Source: Lachnospiraceae bacterium
GTDB lineage: Bacteria; Bacillota; Clostridia; Lachnospirales; Lachnospiraceae
Assembly (NCBI GenBank): GCA_024405115.1
Contig: JAKSPD010000011.1
Coordinates: 1 to 47,480, forward strand
Reading direction: 5' to 3'
Length of the DNA stretch: 47,480 nucleotides
Below the pieces are notes generated by a model. That model made no database searches. It was not told where the DNA came from and worked only from the letters and a program-made list of their open reading frames with translations. The position numbers and the translations under genes are program-made. Shown here piece after piece: positions 24,382 to 34,412 of this stretch. Position 1 is the stretch's first letter. Every line of letters begins with the position of its first letter.

Positions 24382-25293
24382 ATGTGGAAATACATTCTGA
24401 AAAGAGTGCTTCTTGCAATACTTACGGTACTGCTGATCTGCATCATCACCTTCTTTCTGATGAATGCGATTCCAGGAGGCCCATTTAATAAGGAAAAGGC
24501 TTTAAGCCAGGCAACCATCGAGGCATTGAATGCCCGATACAATCTTGACAAGCCTGTCTTCACACAGTTCCTTCTTTACATGAAGAACCTGCTTCACGGC
24601 GATTTCGGTGTGAGCTTAAAGAACGGCAGGGAAATCAAGGACATAATCTCAGATTCTTTCCCAATCTCATGCAGGCTCGGTCTGACTGCAGTTACAATTG
24701 CGCTGATTTTTGGCACGATTTTCGGAAGCCTTGCGGCACTTATGAGAAATAAGCTGCCTGACAGAATCATAGTATTTTTAAGTACGCTGTTCACCGCGGT
24801 GCCCAGTTTCGTTCTGGCGACACTTCTTCTTCTGGTATTCAGTATCGAGCTTGGATGGGTTCCTGTCTGGAGTGCCACCGAGACACATTACACACTTCCC
24901 GTAATTGCACTCTGTGCGTATCCGATGGCTTATGTTACAAGGCTCGCAAAGACCAGTATGCTCGATGCCCTTAGTCAGGACTATATCCGTACTGCAAAGG
25001 CAAAGGGCGTTAAGAAGAGTCTTATCATCTTTAAGCATGCGCTCCGTAACTCACTGCTTCCGGTCATCACATATGCCGGACCTGAGATTGCATATATCAT
25101 TACAGGTTCCATGGTTGTTGAGACCGTATTCACGGTCGGTGGAATCGGTTCCAAGTTCGTATCCGCCATTTCAAACAGGGACTATACGATGATCATGGCA
25201 ACAACGATTTTCCTTGCTACCCTCATGGTAGTTGCAAACCTGATCTGTGACCTTCTCTATAAGGTCGTAGACCCCAGGATCAAGTACGATTAA
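24382..25293 (+). CDS. oppB: Oligopeptide ABC transporter permease OppB
   Basis: OppB is one of two membrane permeases of the oligopeptide importer. The 303-residue protein begins with the family motif YILKRVLLAILTVLLI and RxPGGPF-like AIPGGPF. It has six predicted helices and the BPD_transp_1 EAA-loop sequence DYIRTAKAKGVKKSLIIFKHALRNSLLPVIT near residues 195-225, which contacts the ATPases. It is the first gene of oppBCDF-A, with the binding protein unusually last. The spacing to oppC is 10 nt. Confidence 0.94.
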   Translation: MWKYILKRVLLAILTVLLICIITFFLMNAIPGGPFNKEKALSQATIEALNARYNLDKPVFTQFLLYMKNLLHGDFGVSLKNGREIKDIISDSFPISCRLGLTAVTIALIFGTIFGSLAALMRNKLPDRIIVFLSTLFTAVPSFVLATLLLLVFSIELGWVPVWSATETHYTLPVIALCAYPMAYVTRLAKTSMLDALSQDYIRTAKAKGVKKSLIIFKHALRNSLLPVITYAGPEIAYIITGSMVVETVFTVGGIGSKFVSAISNRDYTMIMATTIFLATLMVVANLICDLLYKVVDPRIKYD

Positions 25294-25303
25294 GGAGGCG
25301 GAC

Positions 25304-26380
25304 ATGGAGAATTATGATGTAAACAAGATGCCGAAGAAACAGTTTCTGAGCGCACAGATAGACTTAAGTAAGTTTGAGAAGGCAACCGATGAGGAAAAGC
25401 AGCAACAGGACATAATGGGCGAAAGCACCACGTTCTTTAAGGACGGAATGAAGAAGCTCTTAAAGAACCCGCTTGCAGTCGCATCCATGATAGTGCTGCT
25501 CTTTGTAATAACAGTCATCATCGTGGCACCCATGATCGTGCCCTACAGCTACGAGGAGATCCTTACCGTTAACGGAAAGAGGGACAAGGGTGCAAAAAAC
25601 CTCAAGCCCTTCACCTACAGTAAGGAGGAGCAGAAATTTATAGCCAACGGAGGAGAGCGTTTCCCGCACATCATGGGAACTGACGAGCAGTGCCGTGACT
25701 ATTTCATCCGTGTCGTTTACGGAACCAGGGTATCGCTTATAGTCGGTTTCTTCGCAAGTATCATCGTTCTTATCATCGGAATGATATACGGAAGCATTTC
25801 CGGTTATGCAGGCGGAAGGGTGGACCTTTTCATGATGCGTGTGGTAGACCTGATATACTCACTGCCTGACATGCTCGTTATAATCCTTCTGTCCGTCGTG
25901 TTCACGAACGTGCTTTCATTTAAGAGCGGTTCGTTCCTGGCCGCACTCGGTACAAACATGGTTTCAATGTTCATGGTATTCGGACTTCTGTACTGGGTTA
26001 CCATGGCAAGACTTATACGTGCTGAAATTCTTTCAATAAAGGAAAATGACTACATTCTGGCAGCAAAGTCGGTGGGAGCAAGCCCGGTGAGCATCATCAA
26101 AAAGCATATCCTTCCGAACTGCCTTTCAGTCATCATCATTTCAACTGCACTGCAGATTCCTTCAGCCATCTTTACGGAAAGCTATTTAAGCTTCGTAGGA
26201 CTGGGTGTTCAGGCACCCATGCCTTCACTCGGAAGCCTTGCAAACGCGGCAAGGGAAGGCCTGCAGTCATATCCCTATAAGCTTGTGTTCCCGGCACTTA
26301 TGATCTGTCTCATCGTGCTGAGCCTTAACCTCATCGGCGACGGCTTAAGGGATGCGTTTGACCCGAAGCTTAAGAGGTGA
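25304..26380 (+). CDS. oppC: Oligopeptide ABC transporter permease OppC
   Basis: OppC pairs with OppB to form the translocation pore. The 358-residue protein has the long cytoplasmic N-terminus of OppC proteins, a first helix near 66-86, an extracellular loop with HIMGTDEQCRDYFIRVVYGTRVSL, and the EAA loop DYILAAKSVGASPVSIIKKHILPN near 248-270. The end DGLRDAFDPKLKR is typical. AAGGAGG lies upstream of the ATG at 25304. It ends close to oppD and reads in the same operon. Confidence 0.95.
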   Translation: MENYDVNKMPKKQFLSAQIDLSKFEKATDEEKQQQDIMGESTTFFKDGMKKLLKNPLAVASMIVLLFVITVIIVAPMIVPYSYEEILTVNGKRDKGAKNLKPFTYSKEEQKFIANGGERFPHIMGTDEQCRDYFIRVVYGTRVSLIVGFFASIIVLIIGMIYGSISGYAGGRVDLFMMRVVDLIYSLPDMLVIILLSVVFTNVLSFKSGSFLAALGTNMVSMFMVFGLLYWVTMARLIRAEILSIKENDYILAAKSVGASPVSIIKKHILPNCLSVIIISTALQIPSAIFTESYLSFVGLGVQAPMPSLGSLANAAREGLQSYPYKLVFPALMICLIVLSLNLIGDGLRDAFDPKLKR

Positions 26381-26385
26381 TTGAT

Positions 26386-27372
26386 ATGAGTGAGACTATT
26401 TTATCAGTACAGAACCTTCATACAACATTTACGACTAATGCCGGCACGGTTACGGCAGTGAACGGCGTCAGCTTTAACCTTGATAAAGGCGAAATCCTTG
26501 GCATCGTTGGAGAGTCCGGTTCGGGCAAATCCGTAACGGCTTATTCCATCATGCAGATCCTTGCAGAAAACGGCCGCATTTCAGAAGGAAAGATCTTCTA
26601 TAAGGGTGAGGATCTTACCACCTGGGATGAAAGCAGGATGCGTTCCTTCCGTGGAAAGTGCTGCTCCATCATCTTCCAGGACCCAATGACCTCACTTAAC
26701 CCCGTATATACCGCGGGCAGTCAGATAGTGGAGGCAATTGAGCTTCATACCGATAAACGCGGTGATGCTGCAAAAAAGCGTGCGCTTGAAATGCTGGACC
26801 TTGTCGGCATTAACGAGCCCGAGCGTCGTTTTAAGCAGTATCCGTTCGAGCTTTCAGGCGGCATGCGTCAGAGGATAATGATAGCCATGGCACTTGCCTG
26901 CGAACCTGACATCCTTATTGCCGATGAACCCACCACAGCGCTTGACGTTACCATTCAGGCACAGATCCTTGAGGAAATCCAGAACCTGCAGAAGAAGATG
27001 GGAATGTCCGTAATAATGGTTACGCATGACCTGGGAGTCATCGCAAGCCTCTGTGACAACATAATTGTCATGTACGGCGGCAGCATATGTGAAAGAGGAA
27101 CCGCGGATGAAATCTTCTACAATCCGCGTCACGAGTATACAAAGGGCCTGCTCCGTTCAATTCCCAGCATCAACAACATGAAGAAAAAGCTGGTACCCAT
27201 TGCCGGATCACCTGTAAATATGCTCAACCTGCCTGCAGGCTGTGCGTTCTGCACGAGGTGCGATGAGGCAATGAAGATCTGCCTTACAGATAAACCGGAA
27301 GAAATACAGATCAACGAAAATCATCTGGCAAGCTGCTGGATGAATGTAAAGGAGGGACTTACCAATGGCTGA
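26386..27372 (+). CDS. oppD: Oligopeptide ABC transporter ATPase OppD
   Basis: OppD is one of two nucleotide-binding subunits. The 328-residue protein has Walker A GESGSGKS, signature LSGGMRQR, Walker B with ADEPTTALD, and the oligopeptide-type C-terminal extension with the cysteine motif around [14 protein letters not shown], which in relatives can hold an iron-sulfur cluster. The ATG at 26386 is preferred over the in-frame GTG at 26377 because AGAGGTG is well placed before it. It overlaps oppF by 8 nt. Confidence 0.95.
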
Positions 27373-28321
27373 ACCGCTCGTAAAGGTTGAAGACCTGAAA
27401 CAGTATTTCCCCATCCGTAATGGCCTTAAGGTCAACTGGTTAAAGGCTGTCGACGGAGTATCCTTTGAAATCAATGCCTCTGAAACACTTGGACTTGTAG
27501 GAGAGTCAGGCTGTGGAAAGACAACCGTCGGAAGGAGCATGCTCAGGCTCTATGAGCCCACAGGCGGAAAGGTTACCTTTGACGGCACTGAAATCACAAA
27601 AAGCAACATCCAGCAGATGCGTAAGGAAATGCAGATGGTTTTCCAGGATCCTTACTCATCGCTTGATCCGAGAATGACGGTTGAGGATATCATCGGTGAA
27701 CCGCTGGACGTACACCACCTGTATGCGAATAAGGCGGAGCGCCATGAGAAGGTGCTTGACCTCATGGACCAGGTAGGACTTAAGGCAGACCATGCGGCAC
27801 GTTATGCGCATGAATTCTCCGGCGGACAGCGCCAGAGGATCGGCATAGCGAGGGCACTTGCCGTAAATCCCGGATTTATCGTCTGCGATGAGCCTGTATC
27901 GGCACTGGATGTTTCAATTCAGGCACAGGTAATCAACATGTTTGAGGAACTCCAGAATAAGCTTGGTGTGGCATATCTTTTCATCGCACATGACCTTTTA
28001 GTTGTAAGGCACATTTCAAAGAGGATTGCCGTAATGTACCTTGGAAGGATAGTGGAGGTGGCTGACGCCGATGAACTCTGTGACGAGCCGCAGCACCCGT
28101 ATTCACAGTCGCTTCTTTCCGCAGTTCCCATTCCGGATCCGAAGATTGCAAGAGAGAGAAAGCGTATAGTCCTTGAAGGCGACGTTCCGTCACCGCTTCA
28201 CATGCCGAGCGGATGCCCATTCAGGACCAGATGCCGCTATGCCACGGAAAAGTGCGCACTGGAACGTCCGGAGCTTACAGACAGGGGCGGAGACCACTTC
28301 GTTGCCTGCTGGAACAAATGA
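27365..28321 (+). CDS. oppF: Oligopeptide ABC transporter ATPase OppF
   Basis: OppF is the second nucleotide-binding subunit and works as a heterodimer with OppD. The 318-residue protein starts VKVEDLKQYFPIRNG and contains Walker A GESGCGKT, signature FSGGQRQR, Walker B with CDEPVSALD and the H-loop FIAHD. The C-terminal region has a cysteine cluster (CPFRTRCRYATEKC) like its partner. AAGGAGGG before the ATG lies within the end of oppD. oppA follows after 54 nt. Confidence 0.95.
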   Translation: MAEPLVKVEDLKQYFPIRNGLKVNWLKAVDGVSFEINASETLGLVGESGCGKTTVGRSMLRLYEPTGGKVTFDGTEITKSNIQQMRKEMQMVFQDPYSSLDPRMTVEDIIGEPLDVHHLYANKAERHEKVLDLMDQVGLKADHAARYAHEFSGGQRQRIGIARALAVNPGFIVCDEPVSALDVSIQAQVINMFEELQNKLGVAYLFIAHDLLVVRHISKRIAVMYLGRIVEVADADELCDEPQHPYSQSLLSAVPIPDPKIARERKRIVLEGDVPSPLHMPSGCPFRTRCRYATEKCALERPELTDRGGDHFVACWNK

Positions 28322-28375: not shown

Positions 28376-30202
28376 ATGAAGAAACTCATGGCACTCATGC
28401 TTGCAGCAGCTATGGTTGTTTCACTTGCAGCATGCGCTTCGCAGCCTGCAGCAACAACTGCAGCTCCCGCAACAGAAGCAGCAACAACAGCAGCTGCAAC
28501 TCAGGCAGCAACAACAGCAGCAACTGAAGCTGCAACAAAGGCTTCAACCGTAACCACCAATACCGTGGAAGTTGACCCCGCACTTGCTCAGGCACTTGTA
28601 TCAAAGGCTTTCATCGACCCCGTTAAGGACTGGGCAAAGTATGATGATATGATCGCGCAGATCAAGTCAGAGACAGATTATGCAAAGAGAACACAGCTCA
28701 TGCACGATGCAGAAGACGTTCTTATGTCAAACTACTGCGTAATCCCGCTTTACTACTACAACGACGTATATCTTCAGAAGCCCTACGTAAGCGGCGTTTA
28801 TTCAAACCCCTTCGCAACAAAGTTCTGGATGTATGCAAAGCTTGACAATGGTTCAGACACATTCCGTCTTAACCTTGCTTCAGAACCCGACTATCTTGAT
28901 CCCGCCCTTAACTCTTCTGTAGACGGTGCGTGCCTTGCAGCAAACTCTTTCTCAGGTCTCTACACCTATAATGCAGAAGGAAAGACAACTCCCGCATGTG
29001 CAGAAGGTTATGAGATGAGTGCTGACGGACTTAAGTACACCGTAACCCTTAAGAAAGACCTTAAGTGGTCAGACGGAACAGCACTTACAGCTAAGGATTT
29101 CGAGTATTCATGGAAGAGAGCAGTTGCTCCCGAGACAGCAGCAGACTACGAGTACATGTTCTCAGGCTTCAAGGGATATGAGGAAGGCGACCTTGCTGTT
29201 ACAGCAGTTGACGACACAACCCTTGAGTTCGAGCTTATCGCTCCCTGCGCTTACATGGAAGACCTTATGGCATTCCCGACATTCTACCCCGTTCCGCAGG
29301 CATATGTTGAGGCAAACTCAACAGCTGATGAGCCCGGTGCTTGGTGCCAGGAAGCAGGATTCCCCTCAAACGGTGCATTCATCTGCACAGCTTGGAACCA
29401 CGACGTATCTATGACATATGAAAAGAACCCCAACTGGTTCGATGCTGACAAGGTTACCATCAACAAGGTAGAGTTCATGCTTTCAGCTGATGATACAGCT
29501 ATTTACGCAGCATATAATGCAGGCGACATCGACTTCGCTGACTCTGTTCCCACAGACGAAATCGCTAGTCTTCTCAGCAATCCTGAGTTCTTCATCGTTG
29601 ATGAGCTTGGAACATACTACGTGGCATTCAACTGCAAGTCATCACTGTTCGACGGAAAGACACCCGAGCAGGCAGCTACAATGAGAGAGGCATTCTCAAT
29701 GCTTATCGACCGTGACTACATCTGCGAGAACATCGGACAGACCGGACAGGTTGCAGCTAACGCATACCTCCCGCTTGGCATGGCAGACGGCAACGGCGGC
29801 ATCTTCAAGAAGTCAGCTATTGATGAAGGTTACTATGATCCCTACGCAATCAACAACGATTATGAAGGAACCGTGGCAAAGGCTATCGAGCTTCTTGAGG
29901 CAGCAGGCTATGTATTCGAGGATGGAAAGCTTTCAGCAGAAACCCCCATCGTTATCGAATACCTTACCAACCAGTCATCAGGACATATTGCAGTTGCTGA
30001 GTCAATGCAGCAGGACTTCGGTGCCATCGGTATTGAGATGAGCATTCAGGTTCAGGACTGGAACGTATTCCTTGAGGAACGTAAGCAGGGTAATTTCGAC
30101 ATCGCACGTGAAGGCTGGATTGCTGACTTCAACGACCCGATCAACATGCTTGAGATGTGGACCACAACATCAGGTAACAACGACTGCCAGTACGGCAGAT
30201 AA
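28376..30202 (+). CDS. oppA: Oligopeptide-binding lipoprotein OppA, apparently circularly permuted
   Basis: This 608-residue solute-binding protein family 5 lipoprotein should capture peptides for OppBCDF. A signal peptide ends in the lipobox LAAC (Cys20), followed by a low-complexity Ala/Thr linker (about 21-62). The normal mature domain starts only at about residue 162 (FRLNLASEPDYLDPALN) and contains LKWSDGTALTAKDFEYSW. The protein stops at GNNDCQYGR, where family members normally continue with roughly 70-100 residues. That missing end (YDDMIAQIKSETDYAKR, AEDVLMS, PLYYYNDVYLQKPYVSGV) is present instead at residues 86-153, before the domain. This reads as a circular permutation. AAAGGAGG precedes the ATG. 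A terminator follows at 30238. Confidence 0.9.
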   Translation: MKKLMALMLAAAMVVSLAACASQPAATTAAPATEAATTAAATQAATTAATEAATKASTVTTNTVEVDPALAQALVSKAFIDPVKDWAKYDDMIAQIKSETDYAKRTQLMHDAEDVLMSNYCVIPLYYYNDVYLQKPYVSGVYSNPFATKFWMYAKLDNGSDTFRLNLASEPDYLDPALNSSVDGACLAANSFSGLYTYNAEGKTTPACAEGYEMSADGLKYTVTLKKDLKWSDGTALTAKDFEYSWKRAVAPETAADYEYMFSGFKGYEEGDLAVTAVDDTTLEFELIAPCAYMEDLMAFPTFYPVPQAYVEANSTADEPGAWCQEAGFPSNGAFICTAWNHDVSMTYEKNPNWFDADKVTINKVEFMLSADDTAIYAAYNAGDIDFADSVPTDEIASLLSNPEFFIVDELGTYYVAFNCKSSLFDGKTPEQAATMREAFSMLIDRDYICENIGQTGQVAANAYLPLGMADGNGGIFKKSAIDEGYYDPYAINNDYEGTVAKAIELLEAAGYVFEDGKLSAETPIVIEYLTNQSSGHIAVAESMQQDFGAIGIEMSIQVQDWNVFLEERKQGNFDIAREGWIADFNDPINMLEMWTTTSGNNDCQYGR

Positions 30203-30375: not shown

Positions 30376-30813
30376 ATGATAGAGGCGGTAAGCTGCGGTG
30401 GCGTGGTTATTTTCAGGGGCAAAATTCTTTTGCTCTACAAAAACTTCAAGAACAGATATGAAGGCTGGGTGCTTCCGAAAGGAACCGTGGAACCCGGCGA
30501 GACCCATGAACAGACAGCATTAAGGGAAGTAAAAGAGGAATCAGGGGCTGACGCCGATATCATCGAGTATGTGGGCTGCAATTCCTATTCTTTTATTGTG
30601 CCTGAGGACAAGGTCGAGAAAGACGTGCACTGGTACCTTATGAAGGGGCGTTCCTACTATTCTAAGCCTCAGACGGAGGAATACTTTAAGGACAGCGGGT
30701 ATTACAAGTATCACGAAGCCATACATCTCCTCAAGTTCCAGAATGAGCGGGAAATGCTTATAAAGGCATATGAACGTTATACCGCCTTGAGAAGGGAAGG
30801 GAATTGGGATTAA
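30376..30813 (+). CDS. Nudix hydrolase
   Basis: This 145-residue protein has the full Nudix box: G-x5-E-x7-REVKEESGA, read in GTVEPGETHEQTALREVKEESGA at about residues 36-58 (the glutamates coordinate Mg). The start VSCGGVVIFRGKILLLYKN and WVLPKGTVEPGE resemble the Ap4A hydrolase/diphosphoinositol branch, but the substrate cannot be fixed from sequence. Its TAA is directly followed by the GTG of copA with no gap, so the two are coupled. A link between a Nudix enzyme and copper export is not obvious and may be coincidental. Confidence 0.85.
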   Translation: MIEAVSCGGVVIFRGKILLLYKNFKNRYEGWVLPKGTVEPGETHEQTALREVKEESGADADIIEYVGCNSYSFIVPEDKVEKDVHWYLMKGRSYYSKPQTEEYFKDSGYYKYHEAIHLLKFQNEREMLIKAYERYTALRREGNWD

Positions 30814-33261
30814 GTGAAGTTTAAGGTTACCGGAATGAGTTGTGCCGCATGCAGCGCCAGGGTTGAAAAGGCAGTATCCCAGACCCCGGGCGTTGTTTCG
30901 TGCGCGGTAAACCTTCTTACCGGTGATCTTTCCGTATCCGGTGACGTAAGTCCGGAACTTATAATCTCGGCTGTAACCGATGCAGGATATGGATGCACGG
31001 AAGGTGACAATGAAAAAACAGCCAAAGACGCGCCTGACATTAACTATGAAACGGAAAAGCTTCTGAAAAAAAGTCTTACAGCGTCTGTCTGCATCCTTAT
31101 ACCCCTCATGTATGTTTCGATGGGGATAGTGATGTGGCATTTTCCTGCACCCTTGTTTCTTAAGGATAATCCCGTGGGAACGGCAATGATTGAGCTTCTG
31201 CTTTCCGCTTCATGCATGATCATTAATAAAAGATTCTTTATAAATGGGTTTAAGGGACTCCTTCACAGGGCACCAAACATGGACACCCTTGTGGCAATGG
31301 GGTCATCCGCCTCATGGGTATATTCACTTGTGCTTACATTCATGATGACCGTGGAGCCCTCAAACGCTTCCGGTTATCTTCACGGACTTTATTATGAGTC
31401 AGCCGCCATGATTCTTACCCTGATCACCGTCGGAAAAATGCTTGAGGCAGGGTCCAGGGGAAAAACCACAGATGCGGTAAGAGGCCTCATGAAGCTTAAG
31501 CCGGATACGGCAAGGCTTTATGACGGAGAAAAGGAGACAACGGTTTCTGCCTCCATGTTAAAGGCCGGTGACATGTTTTCATTAAGGCCCGGAGACGCAG
31601 TACCTGCGGATGGTGAGGTAATATCCGGTGAAAGCACAGTTGACGAATCGGCGCTTACCGGAGAAAGCATTCCCTCGGAAAAGTACCAGGGTTCCCCTGT
31701 CTATGCCGCAACGATAAATAAGGGTGGGCACCTTATCTGCCGTGCCGTAAAAACCGGTGAGGATACGACGCTTTCAAAAATCATTGACATGATGAACGAT
31801 GCCGCTGCCACAAAGGCACCCATTGCCCGTCTTGCCGACAAGGTCTCCGGGGTGTTTGTGCCGCTTGTAATGGGCATAGCAACGGTGACTTTCCTCATAT
31901 GGTTCATTTCCGGGGAGAGCGTGGGCTTTTCCCTTGCAAGGGCCATTTCCGTATTGGTGATAAGCTGTCCGTGTGCACTTGGACTGGCCACTCCGGTAGC
32001 CATAATGGTAGGAAATGGTACTGCGGCACGAAAAGGCATACTTTTTAAGACTTCGGAAGCCCTTGAACAGACCGGAAAGATAAAATTTGCCGCGTTTGAC
32101 AAGACAGGGACCGTGACAGTGGGAAAGTCTGCCGTTACCGATGTTTATGCGGTTTCAGATGAAAATGAGCTTCTTACCTTTGCAGCGTCCATTGAAAGGC
32201 AGTCTGAACATCCGCTGGCTGAAGCCATCAGTGACTACTGCAGTAAGCTCTCCATAAATGCACTCCCCGTCACAGGCTTTAACGCAACGGGAAGCCTTGT
32301 CAGCTGCTGCTGCAACGGTTCCCTGATCAAGGGAGGAAGCAGGAAGGCCGTAATAGATTTTGCAGTTCCTTCGGAGCTGTTAGAAAAAGAAAAAGAGTTT
32401 TCTGCTGCAGGAAAAACACCCCTTTACTTTACATGTGACAGCAGGTGCCTTGGAATCATAGCACTTTCTGATACGTTAAGGGAAACAAGTGCCTTAGCCG
32501 TAAATGAAATAAAGGAACTTGGAATAACCCCTGTAATGATTACCGGTGATAACGAGGTGACCGCGGGATTCATTGCCGCAAAGGCGGGTATCGAAAGAAT
32601 ATACGCTGGCGTTCTTCCTGGTGAGAAGGCGGGAATCATAGAAGAGCTTAAAAAAGAAGGACTCACCATGATGGTGGGAGACGGTATTAATGATGCCGTC
32701 GCCTTGAAGACCGCGGATATAGGAATGGCCATAGGTGCCGGAGCGGACGTGGCACTTGATGCCGCGGACGTGGTGCTCATAAGGTCTGATCTTCAGGATG
32801 CCGTCATGGCAGTTTCACTAAGCCGGAAGGTCCTTAAGAACATAAAGGAAAACCTGTTCTGGGCATTCTTTTACAACTGCCTGTGCATACCGCTTGCGGC
32901 AGGGGCTTTCATAAAACCCTTCGGGCTGATGATCACGCCCATGTTCGGGGCCGCTGCAATGAGTCTTTCAAGCCTTTTTGTCGTGACGAACGCCTTAAGG
33001 CTCAGAAATTTCAAAAAAGAAGATAAAAACCGGATAATTGAGGAAAATATAGAGGAGAAAAAGGAAATGACAGTTACGCTTAATATTGAAGGAATGATGT
33101 GCACTCACTGTGAGGCAAGGGTAAAGAAGGCACTTGAGAGCGTTGCCGGCGTTACTGAGGCAGTTGTTTCACATGTCGAAGGGACTGCTGTCGTGACAGG
33201 CAGTGCCTCAGAGGAAGCACTTAAAAAAGCAGTAATTGATGCAGGCTATGAGGTAAAATGA
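30814..33261 (+). CDS. copA: Cu(I)-exporting P1B-type ATPase CopA with N- and C-terminal metal-binding domains
   Basis: CopA pumps Cu(I) out of the cytoplasm. The 815-residue protein has an N-terminal HMA domain (Cys10 and Cys13 in GMSCAAC), TGES (282-285) in the actuator domain, the intramembrane CPC (385-387), the phosphorylated DKTG (Asp429) and GDGIND (622-627). YN in FFYNCLCIP and MSLSS in the last helices fit the Cu(I)-specific class. Unusually a second HMA domain sits at the C-terminus (residues 752-815, Cys763 and Cys766). That part begins with a methionine preceded by GAGGAG, so it may also be made alone as a CopZ-like chaperone. The start codon is GTG. Confidence 0.95.
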   Translation: MKFKVTGMSCAACSARVEKAVSQTPGVVSCAVNLLTGDLSVSGDVSPELIISAVTDAGYGCTEGDNEKTAKDAPDINYETEKLLKKSLTASVCILIPLMYVSMGIVMWHFPAPLFLKDNPVGTAMIELLLSASCMIINKRFFINGFKGLLHRAPNMDTLVAMGSSASWVYSLVLTFMMTVEPSNASGYLHGLYYESAAMILTLITVGKMLEAGSRGKTTDAVRGLMKLKPDTARLYDGEKETTVSASMLKAGDMFSLRPGDAVPADGEVISGESTVDESALTGESIPSEKYQGSPVYAATINKGGHLICRAVKTGEDTTLSKIIDMMNDAAATKAPIARLADKVSGVFVPLVMGIATVTFLIWFISGESVGFSLARAISVLVISCPCALGLATPVAIMVGNGTAARKGILFKTSEALEQTGKIKFAAFDKTGTVTVGKSAVTDVYAVSDENELLTFAASIERQSEHPLAEAISDYCSKLSINALPVTGFNATGSLVSCCCNGSLIKGGSRKAVIDFAVPSELLEKEKEFSAAGKTPLYFTCDSRCLGIIALSDTLRETSALAVNEIKELGITPVMITGDNEVTAGFIAAKAGIERIYAGVLPGEKAGIIEELKKEGLTMMVGDGINDAVALKTADIGMAIGAGADVALDAADVVLIRSDLQDAVMAVSLSRKVLKNIKENLFWAFFYNCLCIPLAAGAFIKPFGLMITPMFGAAAMSLSSLFVVTNALRLRNFKKEDKNRIIEENIEEKKEMTVTLNIEGMMCTHCEARVKKALESVAGVTEAVVSHVEGTAVVTGSASEEALKKAVIDAGYEVK
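33067..33261 (+). CDS. copZ: Possible internal start producing a free CopZ-like chaperone (64 aa)
   Basis: This is an in-frame alternative product from the 3' end of copA. ATG 33067 is preceded by GAGGAG at 33052-33057 (9 nt away) and AAGGAA closer in. The sequence before it (about residues 733-751) is a charged, low-complexity linker. The 64-residue product MTVTLNIEGMMCTHC... is a complete HMA domain with a length close to a normal CopZ. E. coli is known to make a free copper chaperone from copA by frameshifting, so the idea has precedent by a different mechanism. Use of this start is an inference. Confidence 0.45.
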   Translation: MTVTLNIEGMMCTHCEARVKKALESVAGVTEAVVSHVEGTAVVTGSASEEALKKAVIDAGYEVK

Positions 33262-33264
33262 TCC

Positions 33265-33852
33265 ATGTCCGATGAAGAAAAAAGGATTCCCGGATCTTCT
33301 GATGCAGGGCTTTCTGACCTGTTTATCACATTTGCAAAAATCGGGGTAATGACCTTTGGAGGCGGTGCGGCCATGCTGCCCATGCTCCAGAGGGAAGTGA
33401 TTGATAATAAAAACTGGGTTGCCGAGGAGGAACTCATCGACTATTACGCAATCGGCCAGTGTACTCCGGGAATAATAGCCGTTAATACCGCAACGTTCGT
33501 AGGCTACAGAAAACGCGGGATAGCCGGCGGCATAATTGCCACACTTGGAGTTATATTCCCGTCACTTGTGATAATCACCCTTCTCGCGGGACTTATCCAG
33601 AATTTTGCTGACCTTCCAGTGGTCAAAAGCGCTTTCGCGGGGATAAGGGTATGTGTATGCGTCCTGATCCTTAACGCGGTTTTAAAGCTTCTGAAAAAGT
33701 CAGTCATTGATAAGGTGACTGTCATCATTTTTATTCTTGTGCTTGCCGGAAGCTGTTTTCTTGACTTGAGCCCCATTATATTCGTGGTCGTATCAGCGGC
33801 TGCAGGACTTATTCTAAAGGCTCTTTCTGAAAAAAAGGGAGGTGAACAGTAA
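33265..33852 (+). CDS. chrA: Chromate transporter, first half-size subunit
   Basis: This 195-residue membrane protein is a single CHR domain, as in the short-chain chromate ion transporters that function as pairs. Signatures are FAKIGVMTFGGGAAMLPMLQ, the CTPGIIAVNTATFVGY motif and a run of about six hydrophobic helices. The substrate may be chromate or sulfate-like anions; chromate resistance is not shown for most members. It begins 3 nt after copA and ends on the first base of the next chr gene. Confidence 0.88.
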   Translation: MSDEEKRIPGSSDAGLSDLFITFAKIGVMTFGGGAAMLPMLQREVIDNKNWVAEEELIDYYAIGQCTPGIIAVNTATFVGYRKRGIAGGIIATLGVIFPSLVIITLLAGLIQNFADLPVVKSAFAGIRVCVCVLILNAVLKLLKKSVIDKVTVIIFILVLAGSCFLDLSPIIFVVVSAAAGLILKALSEKKGGEQ

Positions 33853-34412
33853 TGAACATCCTCCTTATGCTTTACTGGGAATTTTTCAAGACCGGACTTT
33901 TTTCCATCGGCGGAGGTATGGCCACGATACCGTTCCTTAAAAGGATGGGCGAAAGCACAGGGTGGTTTACGAATGCGGATCTCATGAACATGCTTGCTGT
34001 TTCCGAATCGACCCCCGGCCCCATCGGAATCAACATGGCCACCTACGTGGGATTTACTGTAAAGGGTATCCCCGGAGTACTTGCTGCAACAATAGGTGAA
34101 GTGACGCCCTCGGTGATCATCATCCTGCTGATTGCTGCGGCACTCAGCAAGTTCAGGAACAACAGGTACGTTAATAACGCGCTGTACGGGATAAGGCCGG
34201 CATCGACAGGACTTATCGGCGCAGCCGGTCTCTCAATCATAGTGACGATACTTTTTATGGCTGACGGTAGTTTTAAGGTTAACTGTCAGGGACTTATACT
34301 CGCAGTTGTCATTTTCATTTTCAGTAATTACGTAAAAAAGACAAAGAAGCTTCATCCCATTATTTTCATAGCCTTTTCGGCAGTTATCGGAATTATATTC
34401 AGGTGGCAGTAA
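33852..34412 (+). CDS. chrA: Chromate transporter, second half-size subunit
   Basis: This 186-residue protein is the antiparallel partner of the preceding CHR subunit. It has [21 protein letters not shown] and [18 protein letters not shown], the same motif pair in diverged form. The two genes overlap by one base (stop TAA, start ATG), supporting a fixed one-to-one complex. It is followed after 4 nt by uvrA. Confidence 0.88.

Follow-up and report, generated by a model that had tools for sequence, protein, structure and literature searches.

The window, a stretch of 47,480 nucleotides from the genome of a Lachnospiraceae bacterium, carries next to its oppBCDF genes a family 5 solute-binding protein (SBP) gene whose product has a circularly permuted chain. 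We read the product, with high confidence, as the SBP lipoprotein of an ordinary OppABCDF importer, permuted and switching its chain order in place in the operon. The permutation is a recurrent state of the family and not a one-off. Below, L numbers denote loci, G numbers genomes, and types A to E cut points, type A being that of the window.

Chain order of the window protein and its operon

The open reading frame (ORF) at 28376-30202 on the + strand starts with ATG and encodes 608 amino acids in a single clean frame. The sequence-only reading of this DNA had proposed a naturally circularly permuted OppA, with the usual C-terminal segment, put there at residues 86-153, standing before the mature fold. 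The features are as follows.

24382..25293, + strand: oppB permease (NCBIfam Opp3B, E 4e-94, below curated cut-off)
25304..26380, + strand: oppC permease (NCBIfam Opp3C, E 6e-88, below cut-off)
26377..27372, + strand: oppD ATPase (NCBIfam OppD, E 7e-114, below cut-off)
27365..28321, + strand: oppF ATPase (NCBIfam OppF, E 8e-121, below cut-off)
28376..28435, + strand: signal peptide of the permuted OppA with lipobox Cys20 (LAAC), read from the sequence
28436..28633, + strand: Ala/Thr-rich linker, residues 21-86, ending ...FIDPVKDW (sequence; dN/dS against L051)
28634..28846, + strand: moved segment, residues 87-157, the usual C-terminal end of family 5 SBPs (profile columns 444-514; unpermuted profile, E 9.7e-26)
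28847..28849, + strand: residue 158, joint between the natural C-end and the natural N-start of the mature fold (...FWMYAKLDNGSDTFRLNL...; profile alignment)
28850..30199, + strand: body, residues 159-608, profile columns 8-442, last residues GNNDCQYGR (Pfam and profile)
30116..30127, + strand: W581-x-x-D584, likely site for the peptide amino terminus (pattern; role by comparison with W498/D501 of AliD, as given in PMC11192437)

When the protein was compared with PDB sequences by phmmer, the three best chains (OppA 8are, DppE 8ay0, and OppA 9rd1) each aligned as two swapped stretches, query residues ~157-606 with chain residues ~15-450 and query residues 88-146 with ~446-510; the second DppE stretch has an independent E-value of 4e-9. 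On a profile of 515 columns made from 58 unpermuted relatives, the protein matches columns 444-514 (E 9.7e-26) and then, with residues 159-607, columns 8-442 (E 1.4e-164), both E-values being for a one-sequence search. Column 443, where the chain is cut, and columns 1-7 and 515, which belong to the natural ends, are the only ones left unmatched. As both stretches are matched in swapped order, the protein is complete and merely rotated, which bears out the proposed permutation and moves the segment's limits to residues 87-157. Each segment is present once, in rotated order, and the two are joined at the natural termini.

The end has been moved and not lost, as the sequence-only reading held: the profile is complete in rotated order, and the flanks hold no leftover copy. 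For 154 permuted ORFs including the window's, some of which are the same gene in two loci, up to 800 bases after the stop and up to 600 bases before the ORF showed no further copy of the moved segment; 13 of the 154 gave weak matches only (E 0.001-0.05), the window not being among these 13. The next ORF on the same strand is Nudix-like and starts at 30376. Judged by alignment, a natural circular permutation of a family 5 SBP with nothing lost or duplicated is confirmed.

Family 5 membership is supported by Pfam PF00496, which matches the body only (residues 204-602, E 4e-78, 263.5 bits against a cut-off of 32.4). The protein departs from the normal chain order of the family, which sets it apart as a variant and leaves its homology unaffected. 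Since Pfam sees only the body, annotation by profiles conceals rearrangements of this kind in what is a very large family of transporters. By reading, the LAAC lipobox with Cys20 makes the product a predicted lipoprotein.

The genes at 24382-28321 encode two permeases and two ATPases, an Opp/Dpp-type set of partners, with NCBIfam matches below the cut-offs. All four partners are near by for 108 of the 125 SBP genes in loci of at least 6 kb; the 17 SBPs without all four were left out. The window protein carries GWIADFNDP with the W-x-x-D at 581-584, and the pattern W-x-x-D-[YFW], its position not enforced, is present in all 128 distinct permuted ORFs and in 104 of the 113 distinct unpermuted ones. 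With oppBCDF adjoining and this signature present, the protein most likely works as a normal OppA, the peptide-binding subunit.

Farther along the window, 30814-33261 encodes a copper-type P-type ATPase with an N-terminal metal-binding domain and a C-terminus (residues 755-814) that matches the CopZ metallochaperone model, and two short adjoining genes at 33265-34412 correspond to the two halves of chromate-efflux transporters, below curated cut-offs.

Switching of chain order in one operon lineage

In the loci compared, type A and unpermuted orthologues occupy the same operon position, and the order oppB-C-D-F-SBP is common to permuted and unpermuted loci; G371, with its SBP gene upstream of oppB, is the exception. 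The SBP of G362 (permuted, L131/L278) is 84% identical in common order to that of G922 (unpermuted, L235/L288) and 69-73% identical to the four permuted relatives compared. At the DNA level, the G362 and G922 operons are 75-78% identical, the body 80.2%, and the moved segment 79.5%, in swapped order. Likewise, the SBP of G412 (permuted, L132) is 74% identical to that of G302 (unpermuted, L276; DNA identity 73.5% in the body and 78.2% in the moved segment) and at most 59% identical to the other permuted representatives in that comparison; G1685, of the same genus, has a permuted near-copy of the G412 gene (96% identical). The type C protein of L160 is 73% identical to the unpermuted one of L273 and at most 49% identical to any other permutant.

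Gene conversion of the body alone was rejected as an explanation, as body and moved segment give like identities in the pairs checked (L132/L149, 0.70 and 0.72; L160/L273, 0.72 and 0.72; L219/L146, 0.68 and 0.62; L144/L162, 0.67 and 0.61). The single best partner differs between body and moved segment in several rows, including L219 and L143.

We compared an SBP tree of 67 rows, from which the columns of cut and join had been removed, with a tree of OppBCDF (55 rows, 1325 columns) that contains no SBP sequence. The SBP tree needs six changes of the type A label, at least four of them forced by well supported branches, and the OppBCDF tree needs five, all forced by such branches. A single type A clade was rejected on both (p-AU 0.0005 for the SBP tree and 2e-5 for the OppBCDF tree). 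Near-identical rows were removed by identity thresholds; the OppBCDF tree was built with a simple model, gave long-branch warnings for L283/L284 and L196, and omits L112_WT, L052_WT, and L052_A, which have a partial gene or two operons per locus.

Both orders also occur within one genus. Of 62 genomes in the genus of G412, 14 carry a close relative; two of these are permuted (G412 and G1685) and 12 unpermuted, and over the body three of the 12 are 71-73% identical to G412. The genus of G362 gave matches in 14 of 79 genomes, every one of them permuted, with one cut by a contig end. In a denser tree (51 rows), the permuted gene of G843 (L219) stands alone among 15 unpermuted ones, and the unpermuted (WT) label needs seven changes, five of them forced; L341, at a contig end, was labelled x, which inflates the type A count. 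The unpermuted genes of two genera (L149/L150 and L354-L356) intermix in this tree, so operon transfer plays a part, and the lineages are those of the operon and not of the species.

At the site of cut A, ordinary family 5 SBPs read like GNNDAQWSNAEYDKLI, and in the unpermuted members of the clade roughly 8-12 residues are inserted there (QLGKGSSSAAPDWKAYDEKI). Permuted members mostly finish at QLGK, QFGR, or QYGR, and their fold starts with, e.g., SAAPEWSAYDALI. Most simply, the flexible inserted loop would be the older feature and would have been opened again and again; the insert may instead be a scar of reversion.

Models of chain order fitted to the OppBCDF tree reached log likelihoods of -18.78 (two-way), -19.66 (gains only), and -21.67 (reversion only), which favours new permutation. 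In the fitted models the 46-row operon clade goes back to a permuted ancestor (P unpermuted 0.02-0.03), and in the two-way fit a 12-row, mostly unpermuted group goes back to an unpermuted one (P 0.91-0.93), so that reversion is likely too and probably explains some of the switching. It is unlikely, in our view, that one ancient permutation at site A was followed by reversions only, all unpermuted clade members having returned to the normal order. The permuted basal ancestor agrees with such a history, and the Ser/Ala/Pro-rich insert (such as QLGK-GSSSAAPDW-KAYDEKI) that sits exactly at the cut in unpermuted members could be a remnant of a lipoprotein linker; however, reversion only is the worst of the three fits, L219 is the sole permuted row in its 16-row clade, and the sister group L192-L194/L273, unpermuted save for the type C L160, already has a longer insert at the site.

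As to the route, tandem duplication followed by trimming appears the likeliest. No tandem-fused intermediates were found among the relatives searched, and open frames of 1052-1085 amino acids taken as candidate fusions are actually separate tandem genes of ~540 amino acids (L266-L268). Some genomes in the phylum of Treponema bryantii have many family 5 SBP genes, with up to 11 scored matches per genome and two to three in tandem in the three stretches fetched (L266-L268); such tandem genes in relatives make duplication plausible as a source. Microhomology between linker and site A loop was also considered as the cause of recurrence and found no support: in the 24 of 25 unpermuted genes that were parsed, the DNA words shared were mostly not longer than those of control windows (median fraction 0.62, one below 0.05).

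In the mechanism we propose, the natural N- and C-termini, both in domain I, are joined and the chain opens in a presumably exposed loop of domain III (OppA ~441/~446). The protein is expected to take the usual fold of a cluster C SBP, to close around peptides, and to engage OppBC, with only the entry point of linker and lipid anchor changed, from lobe 1 to lobe 2. Chain order changes within the operon without the gene moving, probably through tandem duplication, in-frame fusion, and loss of the outer parts. It has done so at least five times in this lineage, each time at the one inserted loop; new permutation is the favoured direction, some reversion is likely as well, and other lineages are cut elsewhere.

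Cut points and membrane anchor

Relatives of the window protein are cut at five different points, and the join always runs from the natural C-end to the natural N-start, linking columns 505-514 to columns 2-10 in permuted ORFs. Because this join is common to every permutant, the junction query also retrieved the other cut types. The domain boundaries of OppA were used beside those of AliD to place the cuts. In PMC11192437, the AliD boundaries are given as 29-63, 191-296, and 583-617 for domain I, 64-190 for domain II, and 297-582 for domain III, which places both natural termini of this fold in domain I, or lobe 1.

Cut A (window type): profile columns 442 and 444; OppA 9rd1 ~441-446; domain III
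Cut B (L143-L145): profile columns 120 and 122-126; OppA 9rd1 ~123-132; domain II
Cut C (L160, L189-L191): profile columns 274 and 274-277; OppA 9rd1 ~281-284; start of domain III
Cut D (L168-L170, L179, L180, L185-L187): profile columns 357 and 357; OppA 9rd1 ~353-357; domain III
Cut E (L311/L333, genome G1575): profile columns 403 and 406; OppA 9rd1 ~404-408; domain III
D-like cut (L334, G1422): profile columns 354 and 359

By this mapping, none of the five cuts would fall in domain I, which holds both natural termini. The D-like order also occurs in G1569 (L332), where the N-terminal part is out of frame. Among ORFs with at least 420 profile columns in loci up to L310, 113 distinct ones are unpermuted, 112 are type A, eight type D, five type C, and three type B. 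A homologue with both N- and C-terminal copies of the moved part, the arrangement that the sequence-only reading had named as speaking against permutation, was found neither among 193 ORFs in a two-module scan nor among 241 distinct ORFs by profile coverage.

What looked like a duplicated remnant in L133/L134, with columns 432-447 at either end, was not upheld on reading, and the high coverage of L127 is due to a coiled-coil-like spacer. L306-L308, which are partial junction matches, and L310 proved unpermuted when fetched, as did L335; L334, also a partial junction match, proved permuted.

The sequence-only reading had further supposed that the new tether attaches the protein through the lobe that normally carries the C-terminus. 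This was wrong, since both natural termini belong to domain I/lobe 1 and the new termini map, by alignment to OppA, to domain III/lobe 2. It is improbable that the relocation of the anchor was itself selected because a tether on lobe 2 changes docking on OppBC. Most type A proteins do look like lipoproteins (87 of 112 by pattern), and anchoring is proposed as a possible reason for the permutation of TpMglB-2 in PMC4990184. However, 23 of the 112 have a signal peptide without a lipobox (the last two were not parsed), and all eight type D proteins lack the pattern, so a changed tether cannot be the general reason. The linkers are also variable and weakly constrained in most pairs, and where a permuted and an unpermuted SBP are sisters, their permeases are so too, which means that no class of partner goes with chain order.

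Some permuted SBPs have unusual N-termini. That of L117 (metagenome-assembled genome [MAG] RUI026, L117:527-2422), which has no lipobox pattern, carries at residues 34-84 of the new N-terminus a dockerin-like segment (Dockerin_1, 22.4 bits, cut-off 22.9), hinting at another way of attachment. That of L127 (MAG RUG11948, 5440-7728) has an Ala/Glu/Val-rich spacer of ~200 residues between signal and fold. The genome G818 has two permuted copies.

Occurrence, selection, and relation to known systems

Scanning a genome collection confirmed 446 relatives among 455 candidate stretches. The order of the window protein is found in all 80 loci kept from this collection. Among them are Treponema bryantii XBD1002 and MAGs titled Lachnospiraceae, Oscillospiraceae, Spirochaetales, Sphaerochaetaceae, and Chloroflexi, and most of the 80 named records are MAGs. 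Scans for sequences crossing the junction matched at least 19 of the 392 genomes from the window's order, 11 of 398 from the phylum, and 25 of 348 from the family, each count including the window's own genome. In the phylum to which T. bryantii belongs at least 4 of 296 genomes matched, and in that of G818 (titled Chloroflexi) 3 of 201, with a fourth, G1422, recognised on reading. E-value thresholds were used in all five scans, and the counts include interrupted genes, namely G793 (phylum scan) and G384 (family scan, and also the order scan, its stop lying outside the matched stretch). The interrupted permuted genes are L234/L309 (G384), with an in-frame TAG, L172 (G793, type D), with an in-frame TGA, and L332 (G1569), with its frame-shifted N-terminal part.

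In T. bryantii XBD1002 (L056), identity to the proteins of the window's genome is 76-84% for OppB, OppD, and OppF and, over its best piece, 84% for OppC. Such values suggest a transfer between gut phyla.

Purifying selection acts on the moved segment as it does on the body. Between the window gene and L051, dN/dS is 0.055 for the moved segment, 0.089 for the body, and 0.34 for the linker. The moved segment gives 0.00-0.08 in seven of the eight usable pairs and 0.45 in the eighth, the barely diverged G412/G1685; the pair of the window with L052 was left out, having been formed with the unpermuted SBP that neighbours the permuted one in that locus. That the gene is a decaying pseudogene or non-functional variant is therefore very hard to credit: the in-frame stops of G384 and of the type D G793 point that way, but selection acts on both parts, every permuted ORF has the W-x-x-D pattern, and oppBCDF adjoin the gene. 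We give practically no weight to an assembly artefact or a chimera of two oppA genes, even though the window's genome is a 65-contig assembly, 78.5% complete, since it is refuted by the same order at 57-85% identity in 80 loci from other records, an isolate among them, and in the single-contig genomes G412, G371, and G384; had tandem genes been collapsed, a stop codon and a signal peptide should also remain where the two parts meet.

A wider reading, on which we are evenly divided, is that the gene of this gut and rumen peptide-binding subunit is topologically fluid, with at least five in-place switches, in either direction, in one operon lineage, and with the family cut at at least five places, while its sequence, partners, and presumably function stay unchanged. 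If true, circular permutations would here form a natural series of exceptional density, and a large protein of two lobes could change its chain order almost neutrally, by the opening of an inserted loop that was already there.

OppA (8are, 9rd1, and 1b05) and DppE (8ay0), which we take to be from B. subtilis, E. coli, and Salmonella, share with the window protein the same segments, the W-x-x-D signature, the type of operon partner, and the fold length, and differ in that their last ~70 residues come first in the window protein. Among the matches listed (60 of the 93 PDB chains matching the junction fragment), none has its best stretch across the permuted join. The unpermuted orthologues (G922/L288, G302/L276, and G025/L195) have the same operon order and differ by the normal chain order and the site A insert.

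Among the matches listed in the open PMC literature, from which subscription papers are mostly absent, there was no report of a permuted family 5 protein or OppA or of orthologues switching order, and the CIRPIN preprint (PMC12667903) does not contain the words "solute," "periplasmic," "oligopeptide," or "transporter." The nearest known case is TpMglB-2 (Tp0684) of Treponema pallidum, described in the accessible part of PMC4990184 as a structurally solved, glucose-binding, circularly permuted cluster B lipoprotein of "Type Ic / cluster Bc." It too is a natural circular permutation in an SBP lipoprotein, found in treponemes and Gram-positive bacteria, with ligand binding kept. In contrast to the window protein, which belongs to family 5 and not to the cluster B sugar-binding family, it has strands of the N-lobe moved to the end, and that part of the paper describes neither switching among orthologues nor further cut points. 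By CPSARST, glycine betaine- and molybdate-binding proteins and CysB are related by circular permutation, according to PMC2395249; these cases share the permutation among SBP-fold proteins and differ in having been found by structure, at <24% identity.

Permuted SBPs as such are thus already known. Natural circular permutations are usually inferred between remote relatives, and the family 5 case is unusual for its recurrence and for the closeness of its permuted and unpermuted pairs, which differ by as little as 16% of residues in the same operon. Such close pairs in one operon make the origin, cost, and reversibility of a permutation directly testable with matched natural proteins.
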